Below, one piece after another: positions 29,608-33,008 of a stretch of DNA of 33,008 nucleotides (its first letter is position 1; every line of letters starts with the position of its first letter). The notes beneath the pieces were generated by a model. That model was not told where the DNA came from. It ran no database searches and was given only the letters and a program-made list of their open reading frames with translations. The position numbers and the translations under genes were made by a program. Source of the DNA: Andreprevotia chitinilytica DSM 18519 (GTDB lineage: Bacteria; Pseudomonadota; Gammaproteobacteria; Burkholderiales; Chitinibacteraceae); NCBI RefSeq assembly GCF_000711875.1, contig NZ_JONM01000031.1, forward strand, positions 1-33,008. Reading direction: 5' to 3'.

Positions 29608-29853
29608 ATGCACAATTTGGCGCGCGCATTGATGGACCAGATCTATGCCAAAGCAGAGTCTGTTGGCTTGAAAAAAACCGAGCTGGCCGCTCAGGCCGGG
29701 ATTGATGCGTCCGTGGTGGCCCGTTCATATCGACGCGGCAAGATCAGCCTGGAGTCGCTGCAAGCACTGGCCGGGGTGGTCGGGCTGACCGTTACCTTGT
29801 CCGCAGCCCAATCGGAGCTGGCCAGCAAACTGGAAGCGGGAAGCTTGTTCTGA
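29608..29853 (+). CDS. hipB: HipB-like helix-turn-helix antitoxin
   Basis: The protein has 81 residues with a helix-turn-helix of the Xre/Cro type at about 22-60 (KKTELAAQAGIDASVVARSY, then RRGKISLESLQALAGVVGL) and a short tail (SELASKLEAGSLF). It should bind the operator just upstream and neutralise the kinase encoded next. The start at 29608 has GGA 7 bases upstream; an in-frame ATG at 29632 (MDQIYAKAESVG) is possible. Its stop TGA overlaps the next start (TGATG), which indicates translational coupling. Identification rests on the HTH and on the adjacent HipA-like gene. Confidence 0.8.
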   Translation: MHNLARALMDQIYAKAESVGLKKTELAAQAGIDASVVARSYRRGKISLESLQALAGVVGLTVTLSAAQSELASKLEAGSLF

Positions 29854-31259
29854 TGGACTTGTTCGGTGTGATTTGGACCCGCCATCAAGGCATACCGACC
29901 AAGCTGGCCGATATGGTCTTGACCTCGACCGAGTTGAGGATAACCCGGCACGCTGCCGGCATGGATTGCCCCGGATTCAGCATGCTGCACGATGTCGCCG
30001 GTCTTGCAGAATGGAACTGGGCCCGGTCGCAGGATCAAGAGCTACCGCCACAACTTCAAGCCCTGCTGCCACCACAAGACCCGCACTCACCCATGCGCCG
30101 CCTCATGTACCGGTTGCTGGAGGCCAAAGGGGTTCAGCGTATCGGCCGCCAGCCCATCGAGCAGGAGTGGCTGCTGCTCACGCACTTTGGGGCGGGTGGC
30201 ATCGGGCACCTCGATGTGTTTGCCGACGACCTGAGCGCGCAAGCTTATTACGCACGACCAGAACCTGTTTTAGGCGACCTGACTCAGGCCAGCGCGCTAT
30301 GGGCCTGCTTGCGGGAAGGGTTGGTCAATCAAACGGATGCCGACAGTGCCGCCGAGCTGATGGCCCAAATGCAAGTGACGGGCGTATCCGGAATGATCCC
30401 CAAAGTATTTACCTCGCTGGGTGATGCGGCGTCGCAGGTCTTGGTCAAGGTGGAGCCGCCGGAATACCCACGTGTTCTTTCTGTTGAGGCACTGGCTCTC
30501 GAGCTGCACCGCAAAGCCGGATTGGATGTGCCCGATTGGCGTTACCGCGAATTCGCGTTCGGCGACGAATTGCTCTCGGCATTGGTGCTGGATCGGTACG
30601 ACCGCGACAACGACCACCACCCGATCCCGCAGGAGTCGTTCTACACCCTGCTGCGCACCGGTAACCGCAGCAAGTATTACGAGCGTACCGACGGCGCAAT
30701 GGAAACCCTGTTTACGGTCGTCAATACCCCGGGGCTGGTAGCCAATCCGTTCGAGGTGAAATACGGCATTTTTCAGCGATTCGTGATGGCGCTCGCCACC
30801 GGCAATGGCGACTTGCACAGCGACAACTTCGCCTTGATCGGCCGCGCCGGCGAAGCACGCTTGGCCCCGGTATTTGATCCGGCACCAATGCGGGCGTACC
30901 GGTTTTTCCGGAAGAACCACGACATTCTGTCTGCCCTGCAGTTTTCCGGAATTGGCGGGGTAGATCAGCAGCATCCGGATGGCACGCCGCTGGACTACAC
31001 CTCATCCGGCCAGGTGCCGCCCGATCTGCGCGAACGTGTTCTAGCGCTGGCCCGTGTGGCCGGTATACGGCCAAGCCGGGCCACGAAGTGGATCAAAACG
31101 GCATTGCATGTGACGGAGGGTTTTTCTGAGCAGGCTTGCGATCTATTGAGCAAAGCACCTGCCGCAGACCGACAAAGAAACCGCCCTGCCGTCGACGGAT
31201 TTCGGGCCACCGTAGAAGCAATGCGATCGGCCCTGCGCGAGGCAAGTGGAAGTCCTTGA
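29853..31259 (+). CDS. hipA: HipA-family serine/threonine kinase toxin
   Basis: The protein has 468 residues (E. coli HipA has 440). The nucleotide-binding loop region is VTGVSGMIPKVF (about 174-185), followed by a lysine-containing strand QVLVKVEPPEYPRVLSVEALALELHRKAGLDVPDW. The catalytic loop is GNGDLHSDN (D320, H322, N325) and the metal-binding aspartate is D342 in APVFDPAP; the 22-residue spacing fits HipA. Family members phosphorylate targets such as glutamyl-tRNA synthetase, causing growth arrest and persistence. The N-terminal 130 residues are divergent from the usual HipA N-subdomain, so the target may differ. It is coupled to hipB by a one-base overlap, and 116-bp direct repeats enclose the pair. 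Confidence 0.88.
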   Translation: MDLFGVIWTRHQGIPTKLADMVLTSTELRITRHAAGMDCPGFSMLHDVAGLAEWNWARSQDQELPPQLQALLPPQDPHSPMRRLMYRLLEAKGVQRIGRQPIEQEWLLLTHFGAGGIGHLDVFADDLSAQAYYARPEPVLGDLTQASALWACLREGLVNQTDADSAAELMAQMQVTGVSGMIPKVFTSLGDAASQVLVKVEPPEYPRVLSVEALALELHRKAGLDVPDWRYREFAFGDELLSALVLDRYDRDNDHHPIPQESFYTLLRTGNRSKYYERTDGAMETLFTVVNTPGLVANPFEVKYGIFQRFVMALATGNGDLHSDNFALIGRAGEARLAPVFDPAPMRAYRFFRKNHDILSALQFSGIGGVDQQHPDGTPLDYTSSGQVPPDLRERVLALARVAGIRPSRATKWIKTALHVTEGFSEQACDLLSKAPAADRQRNRPAVDGFRATVEAMRSALREASGSP

Positions 31260-31450: not shown

Positions 31451-31765
31451 GTGCGCTTGTTTTTTGGTGTGGCACTTATGTCGCTAGCTGGCGTTGCCTT
31501 TGCCGGCAGCGTATTCAAGTGCGTCGACCCGACTACCAAGACCGTCACCTTCAGCGATGTGCAATGCAGCAACAACGCCACCATCGTCACCGTGCACGAC
31601 GCCCCGCTCGGCCGTGGCCGCAACGAGGCACCGGCCGAAAGCCCCTACCTGCGCAACCAGAAAAAACCACCACCCAGCAGTGATTCTGGCGGCAGCGTCA
31701 CCCTCTTGCCCGGCCAGCCGGCGGCCCCAAGCGGCCCGTCTGCTTCATCACACTCGCATTACTGA
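31451..31765 (+). CDS. Small exported DUF4124-like protein
   Basis: The protein has 104 residues. Translation probably starts at the GTG at 31451, with GGTGGA about 9 bases upstream. The signal peptide is MRLFFGVALMSLAGVAFA. It is followed by GSVFKCVDPTTKTVTFSDVQC, the pattern of DUF4124 proteins (Y/F-K-C/W-x-D...G/T...F-S-D), with a cysteine pair likely forming a disulfide. The C-terminal half is a disordered Pro/Ser/Gly-rich tail. The function is unknown; the family is common in beta- and gammaproteobacterial periplasms. Confidence 0.75.
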   Translation: MRLFFGVALMSLAGVAFAGSVFKCVDPTTKTVTFSDVQCSNNATIVTVHDAPLGRGRNEAPAESPYLRNQKKPPPSSDSGGSVTLLPGQPAAPSGPSASSHSHY

Positions 31766-31793: not shown

Positions 31794-31821
31794 TTGACCA
31801 CACCAGACGGGATCGGATACT
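31794..31821 (+). promoter_or_regulatory. Probable promoter of the C4-like leader
   Basis: TTGACC (31794-31799) and GATACT (31816-31821) are separated by 16 bases, matching consensus at 5 of 6 and 4 of 6 positions. Transcription would begin near 31828, just before the first leader segment. There is no other promoter of similar quality before the two small genes. Confidence 0.5.
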
Positions 31822-31849
31822 TTGCGCTGTCGCGTTCAATAGCGCGATC

Positions 31850-32056
31850 GGGTTTAGCAGCCTGTCCATCAAGGCGAACAGCCGCATCCTTGCGGTATTT
31901 TTGTTCGCAACACCCTTGGCACGTCTTCGATGCGGGCTCAGGGTGGGGGCACCTTCGGGTGCGCCGGTTCCTTGATGCCGGTCTGCTAACCCCGCCTTGC
32001 GCCCGCCCCTCCGTTTAGCAGCGGAAGGATGGGCTTAACAGCACATCAAGGAGGCA
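31850..32056 (+). ncRNA. C4/CI-like antisense leader RNA controlling the downstream small genes
   Basis: Segment A has ttagcag (31854-31860) and catcaagg (31867-31874). Segment C has ttagcag (32015-32021) and catcaagg (32044-32051), the latter overlapping the Shine-Dalgarno AAGGAGG (32048-32054). Segment B between them has ccttgatg (31970-31977) and ctgctaa (31983-31989), complementary to both parts of A and of C in the right order. Between A and B are three stems. The first is gcgaaca/tgttcgc (31874-31880 with 31902-31908), enclosing ccgca/tgcgg followed by tattttt. The second is caccct/agggtg (31911-31916 with 31940-31945). The third is gcacc-TTCG-ggtgc (31949-31962). This A-B-C logic is that of the P4 CI and P1 C4 antisense RNAs, where a processed RNA pairs with the leader and blocks expression. 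The family assignment is inference; the complementarity is read directly. Confidence 0.7.
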
Positions 32057-32059
32057 AGC

Positions 32060-32326
32060 ATGCCTAACTCCCCACACAGTACCCCCGCCCCACCCGACCC
32101 CAACCACCTCATTGCCCAAGCCCTCGATGGCTTCGCCGAGCTGGACCGGATTTTCACCATCCTCACCAACCTGATCGACCCCCGCGGCATCGGCTACCAG
32201 CTAGCGCGTGACGGTAGCCGGTTGGCGGCACGGCACCGGACGGCAATGCAAATCTTGCAAGCCGGCGCACTCACAGATCGCCGACGGGCACCCCGTTGCC
32301 CCCGTATTGGAGGCCGCCATGTCTGA
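32060..32326 (+). CDS. Small unknown protein 1 behind the C4-like leader
   Basis: The protein has 88 residues. Shine-Dalgarno AAGGAGG lies 5 bases before the ATG and is covered by leader segment C. The N-terminus is Pro-rich (PNSPHSTPAPPDPNH). A helical part follows (LIAQALDGFAELDRIFTILTNL, then GIGYQLARDGSRLAARHRTAMQIL) and a basic tail. Small proteins of the DUF3077/DUF6124 kind are, from memory, found behind similar leaders in pseudomonads, but I cannot confirm membership. The next gene overlaps by 8 bases. No TM segment or signal peptide is present. Confidence 0.7.
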   Translation: MPNSPHSTPAPPDPNHLIAQALDGFAELDRIFTILTNLIDPRGIGYQLARDGSRLAARHRTAMQILQAGALTDRRRAPRCPRIGGRHV

Positions 32327-32570
32327 TCGCCACAACCCTGCACTCACCATCGACGATTACAACGACATCGCCGACGTCGGCCTGGATCGCATCGCCCAAT
32401 TAGGCTGCGTATTCCGCGCCCTGGTCGAAACCACTGAGCCGGAATCCCATCCGCATCATCTGGCAAAGATCGGCGTGTATCTGTCGGAAGAGTGGCATTT
32501 CGCACTGGATACGGCCCGCTACGAGACCGTACAACGGCTCAGGCCGCCGTTAACCACGGATCGGCGTTAG
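32319..32570 (+). CDS. Small unknown protein 2, overlapping protein 1
   Basis: The protein has 83 residues. GGAGG (32309-32313) lies 5 bases before the ATG, so it is well translated from the same mRNA, and the 8-base overlap with the preceding gene suggests coupling. The helical pattern (DVGLDRIAQLGCVFRALVET, then HHLAKIGVYLSEEWHFALDTARYE) resembles that of the previous protein (LDRI ... L ... G ... A), so the two may be distant duplicates. It is acidic, soluble and without a known domain. A terminator follows 23 bases later. Confidence 0.7.
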   Translation: MSDRHNPALTIDDYNDIADVGLDRIAQLGCVFRALVETTEPESHPHHLAKIGVYLSEEWHFALDTARYETVQRLRPPLTTDRR

Positions 32571-32593: not shown

Positions 32594-32629
32594 CAAAAAC
32601 GCCGGCTGGAATCCCAGTCGGCGTTTTTG
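32594..32629 (+). terminator. Terminator of the two-gene small operon
   Basis: Arms caaaaacgccg (32594-32604) and cggcgtttttg (32619-32629) are perfect complements with an inner ctgg/ccag stem and aatc loop, and T5 at the end of the right arm. It lies 23 bases after the second stop codon. Confidence 0.88.
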
Positions 32630-32724: not shown

Positions 32725-32763
32725 AGACATAGGTAACACTTGTCGGTAGACATGGGTAACACT
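32725..32763. mobile_element. Terminal region of an IS481-type element with two tandem 16-mers
   Basis: The sequence agacataggtaacact (32725-32740) is repeated as agacatgggtaacact (32748-32763), 23 bases apart, directly beside the transposase stop. Such gacat..gtaacac repeats are typical ends of IS481-like elements, where transposase binds. The element's edge is probably near 32722; its other end is outside the window. Confidence 0.65.
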
Positions 32764-32767
32764 CAAC

Positions 32768-33007
32768 CTAGTCTAACTGCACCCGCAGATCGATGGTGCG
32801 AATGGCCTTATGACAGAAGAACACCGTCAGCACATCGGCTTGTGCCGAAGGGCGCAGTGCCACGTACTCCCCCGCCAAACCCTCGCCAATGAACACTGCC
32901 CGGCCGCGATACTGGATTTGCCCGTTGACGCGAACCTTCAACACCCGATCGCCCGGCTCATACTCCACCGCCGGCAGTTGCTCCGGATACGGCCGGCCAC
33001 TGCAGCG
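32768..33007 (-). CDS. IS481-family transposase, C-terminal fragment (runs off right edge)
   Basis: The last 79 codons are visible, with the frame open to the window edge; the GTG at 32968 is internal. The text RPYPEQLPAVEYEPGDRVLKV, then QIQYRGRAVFIGEGLAGEYVALRP and VFFCHKAIRTIDLR, is the characteristic C-terminal beta-rich domain of IS481-family DDE transposases (integrase-like core plus tail). The catalytic core lies outside the window, so intactness cannot be judged. Confidence 0.85.
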   Translation of the reverse strand, partial: RCSGRPYPEQLPAVEYEPGDRVLKVRVNGQIQYRGRAVFIGEGLAGEYVALRPSAQADVLTVFFCHKAIRTIDLRVQLD

Positions 33008-33008
33008 G

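Follow-up and report, generated by a model that had tools for sequence, protein, structure and literature searches.

A probable C4-type antisense RNA switch before two small-protein genes in Andreprevotia chitinilytica, with 29 differently worded copies in one genome

C4 RNA is cut from a longer transcript by RNase P to a length of about 77 nt. The CI RNA of P4 carries one antisense segment that is complementary to both an upstream and a downstream site. The statements on the literature given here draw on portions of the cited papers. C4 RNAs have been listed in Proteobacteria and phages (Weinberg et al., 2010, PMC2864571), and a 2025 review describes c4 as binding the ant mRNA near its ribosome-binding site (PMC12197685). 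Some IsrK transcripts extend past the IsrK terminator, and in trans the short IsrK increases the translation of anrP 139-fold (Hershko-Shalev et al., 2016, PMC4825925). Burkholderia cenocepacia has an isrK RNA (81 nt, with a terminator) and a C4 RNA (90 nt), their lengths inferred from dRNA-seq, which lie 22 bases apart in one transcription unit (PMC4603805). Genomes with many C4 copies are already known, as Acinetobacter baumannii has 21 similar C4-like RNAs with RNase P-like cutting in RNA-seq, for which phage or other host targets have been suggested (Weiss et al., 2016, PMC5320573). Another RNA family, sRNA-Xcc1 (RF02221), has so far been described with lists of predicted trans targets (PMC2996969, PMC12189769). 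Its position upstream of symE in Xanthomonas integrons was read as suggesting a divergent regulatory mechanism, none being named (PMC12444791).

The window (the whole stretch of 33,008 nt analysed here) contains a C4 leader followed by two small-protein genes (Table 1). We read this locus as a C4-type antisense RNA switch that controls the translation of the two genes, at a probability of roughly 85%. The words a1b1 (31854-31874) and a2b2 (32015-32051) flank one segment that is complementary to both. Like the C4 of P1/P7 (RF01695), the locus has the C4 fold and a′ and b′ words, which are complementary to the upstream a1/b1 and, at the downstream gene's ribosome-binding site, to a2/b2. Unlike it, the window locus is chromosomal, occurs in 29 differently worded copies and has small proteins in place of ant. 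The first-pass annotation had proposed an Rfam scan for its C4 reading, and the C4 covariance model returns 66.4 bits against a cut-off of 45 over model positions 1-87. The positions that it gave for words A, B and C were confirmed when rechecked in the sequence, and the second word of C (b2) overlaps the Shine-Dalgarno AAGGAGG as it had said. The TTCG loop that it had noticed is the loop within the C4-type fold, and its stem followed by T5 corresponds to the terminator-like hairpin at 31881-31902. The Shine-Dalgarno ends five bases before the ATG of gene 1. Folded alone, the C4 stretch 31929-32010 has an energy of −51.9 kcal/mol (z-score −4.59).

The upstream part of the leader scores below the cut-offs of two other models, c4-a1b1 (RF03163; 31817-31868, 23.6 bits against 46.7) and isrK (RF01394; 31829-31902, 40.0 bits against 50). 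The layout is like that of Gifsy-1 isrK / orf45 / anrP, with a short terminated RNA that contains the A words, followed by read-through into a small gene. It differs in its sub-threshold isrK match and in having other small-protein genes, and activation by the short RNA, documented in Gifsy-1, is putative here. The isrK-like and C4 elements of the window locus are 23 bases apart. A TTGACN hexamer is present in the stretch corresponding to the promoter in 27 of the 29 copies. A chance repeat as the origin of the A/B/C words was considered and rejected. When the antisense segment was shuffled in the 29 copies, a word of at least 8 nt occurred in both A and C in 8/2,900 trials; the window locus has an 8-nt word and a separate 7-nt word in matching order.

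Table 1. Features of the C4 leader and the small-protein cassette (positions in the window)
Feature	Position	Strand	Sequence or evidence
Sigma-70-like promoter	31794-31821	+	TTGACC / 16 nt / GATACT; 1 found vs 0.4 expected
isrK-like short RNA (stem-loop, word A, terminator hairpin)	31829-31902	+	Rfam isrK, 40.0 bits, below cut-off 50
a1, first half of word A	31854-31860	+	TTAGCAG; sequence, covariation with a′
b1, second half of word A	31867-31874	+	CATCAAGG; sequence, covariation with b′
Intrinsic-terminator-like hairpin + T5	31881-31902	+	TTTT at the same place in 29/29 copies
C4 antisense RNA	31926-32012	+	RF01695, 66.4 bits, full model 1-87
b′ loop of C4	31968-31977	+	CCTTGATG at 31970-31977; complementary to b1 and b2/Shine-Dalgarno
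a′ strand of C4	31983-31990	+	CTGCTAAC; complementary to a1 and a2
a2, first half of word C	32015-32021	+	TTAGCAG; sequence, B-C covariation
b2 and overlapping Shine-Dalgarno	32044-32054	+	b2 CATCAAGG at 32044-32051, AAGGAGG at 32048-32054; sequence, B-C covariation
Gene 1, 88-aa small protein	32060-32326	+	no Pfam family
Gene 2, 83-aa paralogue of gene 1	32319-32570	+	overlaps the end of gene 1 by 8 nt (ATGTCTGA)
Terminator-like hairpin closing the cassette	32605-32628	+	

In the window's genome, which is 5.15 Mb in 61 contigs, the C4 model finds 29 matches at E < 1e−5, 28 of them above the cut-off; a thirtieth, partial match of 19 bits (L030) was left out. The other 42 genomes of the family carry 0-4 copies each, and at least one copy is present in 24 of all 43. 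Two congeners have one and none. C4 matches were seen in at least 24/369 genomes of a class sample and at least 29/200 of an order sample, two samples that overlap and in which no more than 11 and 20 candidates, respectively, were scored per genome; seven genomes were rescored. The next highest counts seen were at least 11 (genome G480, order sample) and 10 (genome G316, rescored). In number, the copies are comparable to the Group 1 sRNAs of A. baumannii AB5075 (21 there, 29 here).

The 29 copies were aligned over the region between leader stem and start codon. Between A and B, 90.5% of 431 cells are paired and the covariation score is 0.669, against 0.209 in shuffled alignments. Both sides have changed in 12 of 15 pairs, and there are 113 both-side cells against 34.9 ± 4.8 after shuffling. 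The corresponding values between B and C are 88.5% of 461 cells, 0.588 against 0.193, 13 of 16 pairs, and 107 cells against 35.0 ± 4.4. For both pairings, the percent paired, the both-side cells and the covariation score were reached by 0/500 shuffles. Some shuffles did attain the observed number of pairs changed on both sides (66/500 for A-B, 9/500 for B-C) or of further pair types (85/500 and 33/500). Sliding the partner by 1-3 columns lowers the covariation from 0.67/0.59 to 0.07-0.14. Covariation in A-B and B-C had been put forward at first pass as a check on relatives, and it is found at A, B and C among these 29 paralogues of one genome.

A word of at least 6 nt is common to A, C and the complement of B in each of the 29 copies. 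Among the copies, a′ takes 20 forms and b′ likewise 20, and the combination of the two is unique to each copy. Given its own words, each copy should regulate mainly its own gene, and the 29 copies resemble a large collection of individually RNA-controlled gene locks. The window copy and one relative (L028) differ in one amino acid of 64, yet A, B and C each carry a different b word in the two. Comparison of nearest relatives shows differences at 110/251 positions of the word sites and at 832/4,414 of the rest of the leader; this is suggestive of words that diverge faster than the rest of the leader, which is itself partly constrained. We do not take the code-collision test as proof of private codes, as it was not significant (0 shared codes seen against 1.05 expected, P 0.31) and the lack of sharing is not beyond chance. 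Nor does whole-segment duplex energy support own-target preference. Over longer stretches, to which the conserved flanks contribute, the copy's own A ranked first for 15/29 antisense RNAs and its own C for 5/29, so some cross-talk between copies is possible. We did not find own-gene words per copy in the portions searched of the literature on C4 and isrK. As far as searched, these words and the link to sRNA-Xcc1 described below are new. The 29 natural versions of one switch would be a ready set for asking how large a number of antisense regulators can work side by side free of cross-talk, and the same set could show how pairing words diverge.

All 29 copies are followed by a member of the same small-protein family. 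There are 46 family places in the window's genome, of which 30 are of the gene-1 type (one of them partial, on contig C22), 15 are of the gene-2 type and one is a gene-2-like fragment (contig C30). The first-pass annotation had described two tiny unknown genes, and this description stands, with gene 1 outside any Pfam family and gene 2 showing a weak match to phrog_27414 (E 2e−4), the only PHROGs match among 22 members scanned. Pfam and NCBIfam gave no match of note in the 22 of 46 family places that were scanned. Three NCBIfam names at E 0.08-0.13 were disregarded. Elsewhere among the 43 genomes of the family, the small proteins occur in G012 (four) and G014 (one), at C4 loci, and are absent from the rest. 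No relatives were found in GTDB contigs, phages or IMG/VR, collections in which records near the window's genome are possibly missing. Gene 1 is under purifying selection: among 15 copies, 40% of fourfold sites differ against 13% of amino acids. The fourfold sites of the 14 closest gene-1 pairs differ by 18-29%. Kept amino acids with diverged silent sites indicate that the small proteins matter to the cell or to the element. Three gene 1 copies (L024, L035, L049) are apparently frameshifted or without an ATG start. Homology between copies begins about 100-160 bases 5′ of C4, around the promoter, and at its furthest ends 190-530 bases after C4 in one-gene copies and 635-820 bases after it in two-gene copies. 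Matches farther upstream resemble short intergenic repeats.

The first-pass annotation had also suggested that the locus may be a phage-type immunity switch captured by the chromosome. The phage-type label is apt, since isrK, C4 and the three-word layout are also found in a gene of Escherichia phage Ayreon that is annotated "immunity region" (C4 80.7 bits, isrK 58.9 bits), where both words are present in A, B and C. Thirteen phage records have DNA similar to one of the leaders. Capture by the chromosome fits the neighbours scanned (20 picked of 52 extracted ORFs), as none of the 20 proteins has a phage-specific Pfam match and five have no match. The neighbours include Mfd, YcaO, GH18 and GH8 hydrolases and a GGDEF protein, as well as beta-lactamase, YadA-like, Rhs-repeat, colicin D-like and OmpA-like proteins. 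Upstream of the cassette is a hipBA-like pair (29608-31259), in which a HipA_C protein (PF07804, E 6e−26) follows a small protein whose Cro/CI-type HTH matches are below threshold. A 104-aa ORF between this pair and the cassette (31451-31765) matches phrog_9068 (E 1.4e−8) and, below threshold, DUF4124.

A contig end is no more than about 1.05 kb away from six of the 29 C4 copies. By eye, the window's end (32738-33008) and the ends of contigs C53, C15, C20, C35, C25 and C1 resemble IS pieces. The window's end gave no family match; it aligns with the start of C53 (99% over 156 bases) and with 53 bases at C15, and the end of C20 likewise matches that of C35. A clean empty site was not found in the two congeners, as synteny with them is only partial (about 65-75% identity).

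The evidence best supports a ratio switch, in which a short A RNA is set against the C4 RNA. We infer transcription, cutting, pairing in trans and the direction of control at the window locus, and the dynamics of the switch are modelled on P1/P7 and Gifsy-1. One promoter would give two products, split by a leaky terminator and by cutting. Part of the transcripts would end at the hairpin after A and yield a short isrK-like RNA with word A. Transcripts that read through would be A-B-C mRNAs, from which cutting would release B in the form of a C4 RNA about 80 nt long; in uncut mRNA, A would fold onto B. Free C4 would pair with word C over the Shine-Dalgarno and block gene 1, and gene 2, the start of which overlaps the end of gene 1, would follow by coupling. 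The short A RNA would soak up C4 and re-open the gene.

The pairing evidence can also be read in a purely cis manner, with B pairing with either A or C of the same mRNA and never being set free as an antisense RNA. Alternative pairing of one segment accounts for the same covariation, and the full leader does fold with A on B (z −5.47). We nevertheless consider a cis-only leader distinctly unlikely, as the C4 scaffold forms a compact fold of its own and is recognised as C4 along the whole length of the model, and C4 is a separate RNA in P1/P7, with a similar cutting pattern in A. baumannii (PMC5320573). It is also conceivable, if rather unlikely, that the copies act in trans and that the set of codes silences incoming phages with C4-controlled genes or other chromosomal genes. 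The layout of the Ayreon immunity region and the 13 phage records are consistent with such a role, and phage or host targets are what Weiss et al. (PMC5320573) proposed for the A. baumannii copies. Each copy in the window's genome, however, keeps its own adjacent A and C co-varying with B, which action in trans alone would not preserve.

The number of copies (29 against one and none in the two congeners) and the six copies near contig ends are what would be expected of a selfish mobile repeat that carries the C4 leader along without a regulatory role. The copies are divergent, synonymous changes in them clearly exceed amino-acid changes, and A, B and C vary in concert, which makes a passenger leader very improbable.

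C4 loci of other genomes show the same three-word pattern. In 56/67 of these loci, A, C and the complement of B have a word of at least 7 nt in common, against 48/1,005 mismatched sets and 12/1,340 shuffles; of the 75 loci, L118, L122, L140 and L148 were skipped by length and L067, L078, L086 and L134 were not entered. The genes that follow vary, and one is an AntA antirepressor (L116). The leaders L067 and L086 (genome G026) precede proteins that, we presume, resemble the Pseudomonas DUF6124 and DUF3077 families. By eye, most of the 11 copies in G480 precede another small-protein family, and their own words average 6.73 nt against 5.11 nt when mismatched. The ten copies of G316 (L119, L136, L144, L151, L157, L201-L205) precede other small proteins. 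In most of them, judged by eye, A-B is kept and word C is missing, and these copies perhaps have a different mode of action. Two Acinetobacter loci (L241 in A. baumannii, L242 in A. pittii; separate from the 21 of AB5075) have A and B by eye and no C before the next gene, unlike the copies described here, each of which has its own C. An own-gene target is thus not universal among C4 loci. Four C4 copies (L137, L145, L156, L158) are located within 1.4 kb on contig C9 of G303, a 1.5 Mb genome; by eye, their b words are similar and their a words different.

The 30th relative of gene 1 in the window's genome (G000:C53, L186:319-410) is preceded by sRNA-Xcc1 and not by C4. The sRNA-Xcc1 model scores 70.8 bits at this locus against a cut-off of 53. 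By eye, words A (TTCAACAC, CTCTAGG), B and C are arranged in this leader as in the C4 copies, and a short leader ORF overlaps the gene start. sRNA-Xcc1 was found in 3/43 genomes of the family and in 23/369 of the class, 12 of the latter above the cut-off. Among 34 of 35 sRNA-Xcc1 loci (L217 was too short), 21 have a triple word of at least 7 nt, against 32/1,122 mismatched and 16/1,700 shuffled controls; four have no triple word of even 5 nt. Above the cut-off, where 20 of 22 loci were used (leaving out L217 as short and L219, in which no triple word was found), A-B words of at least 7 nt are present in 19/20 loci (cross 108/380, shuffled 346/2,000) and B-C words in 17/20 (cross 48/380, shuffled 121/2,000). 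For 16 of the 35 loci, picked by eye for a common layout (13 above the cut-off, three below), the A-B covariation is 0.515 against 0.162 shuffled; C is not alignable there.

sRNA-Xcc1 has the same A-B-C layout as the window locus at many of its loci, and differs in its RNA scaffold and covariance model, the window locus being a C4. From its words, sRNA-Xcc1 seems to be another scaffold on which the C4 switch is built. A link between sRNA-Xcc1 and the C4 mechanism was not found in the portions of the literature searched, including PMC12189769, PMC2864571, PMC4603805 and PMC11701678; the 2011 sRNA-Xcc1 paper was outside that search. We give about even odds to a broader proposal, in which C4 and sRNA-Xcc1 would be two scaffolds of one three-word antisense switch class. 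In the window's genome, this class would have multiplied to some 30 locks in the chromosome that all act on one small-protein family, and the words would have diversified to the point where copies no longer respond to one another, much as immunity groups do. If so, sRNA-Xcc1 would be a cis switch of the adjacent gene (e.g., SymE, Bro-N, KilA-N) and not primarily a trans-acting virulence RNA, and the link to C4 offers a simple, testable role for it. The genes after nine sRNA-Xcc1 loci include three Bro-N, three SymE and one KilA-N, the last at a locus below the RNA cut-off; one gene has no match, and the ninth has an AntA match below Pfam's cut-off.
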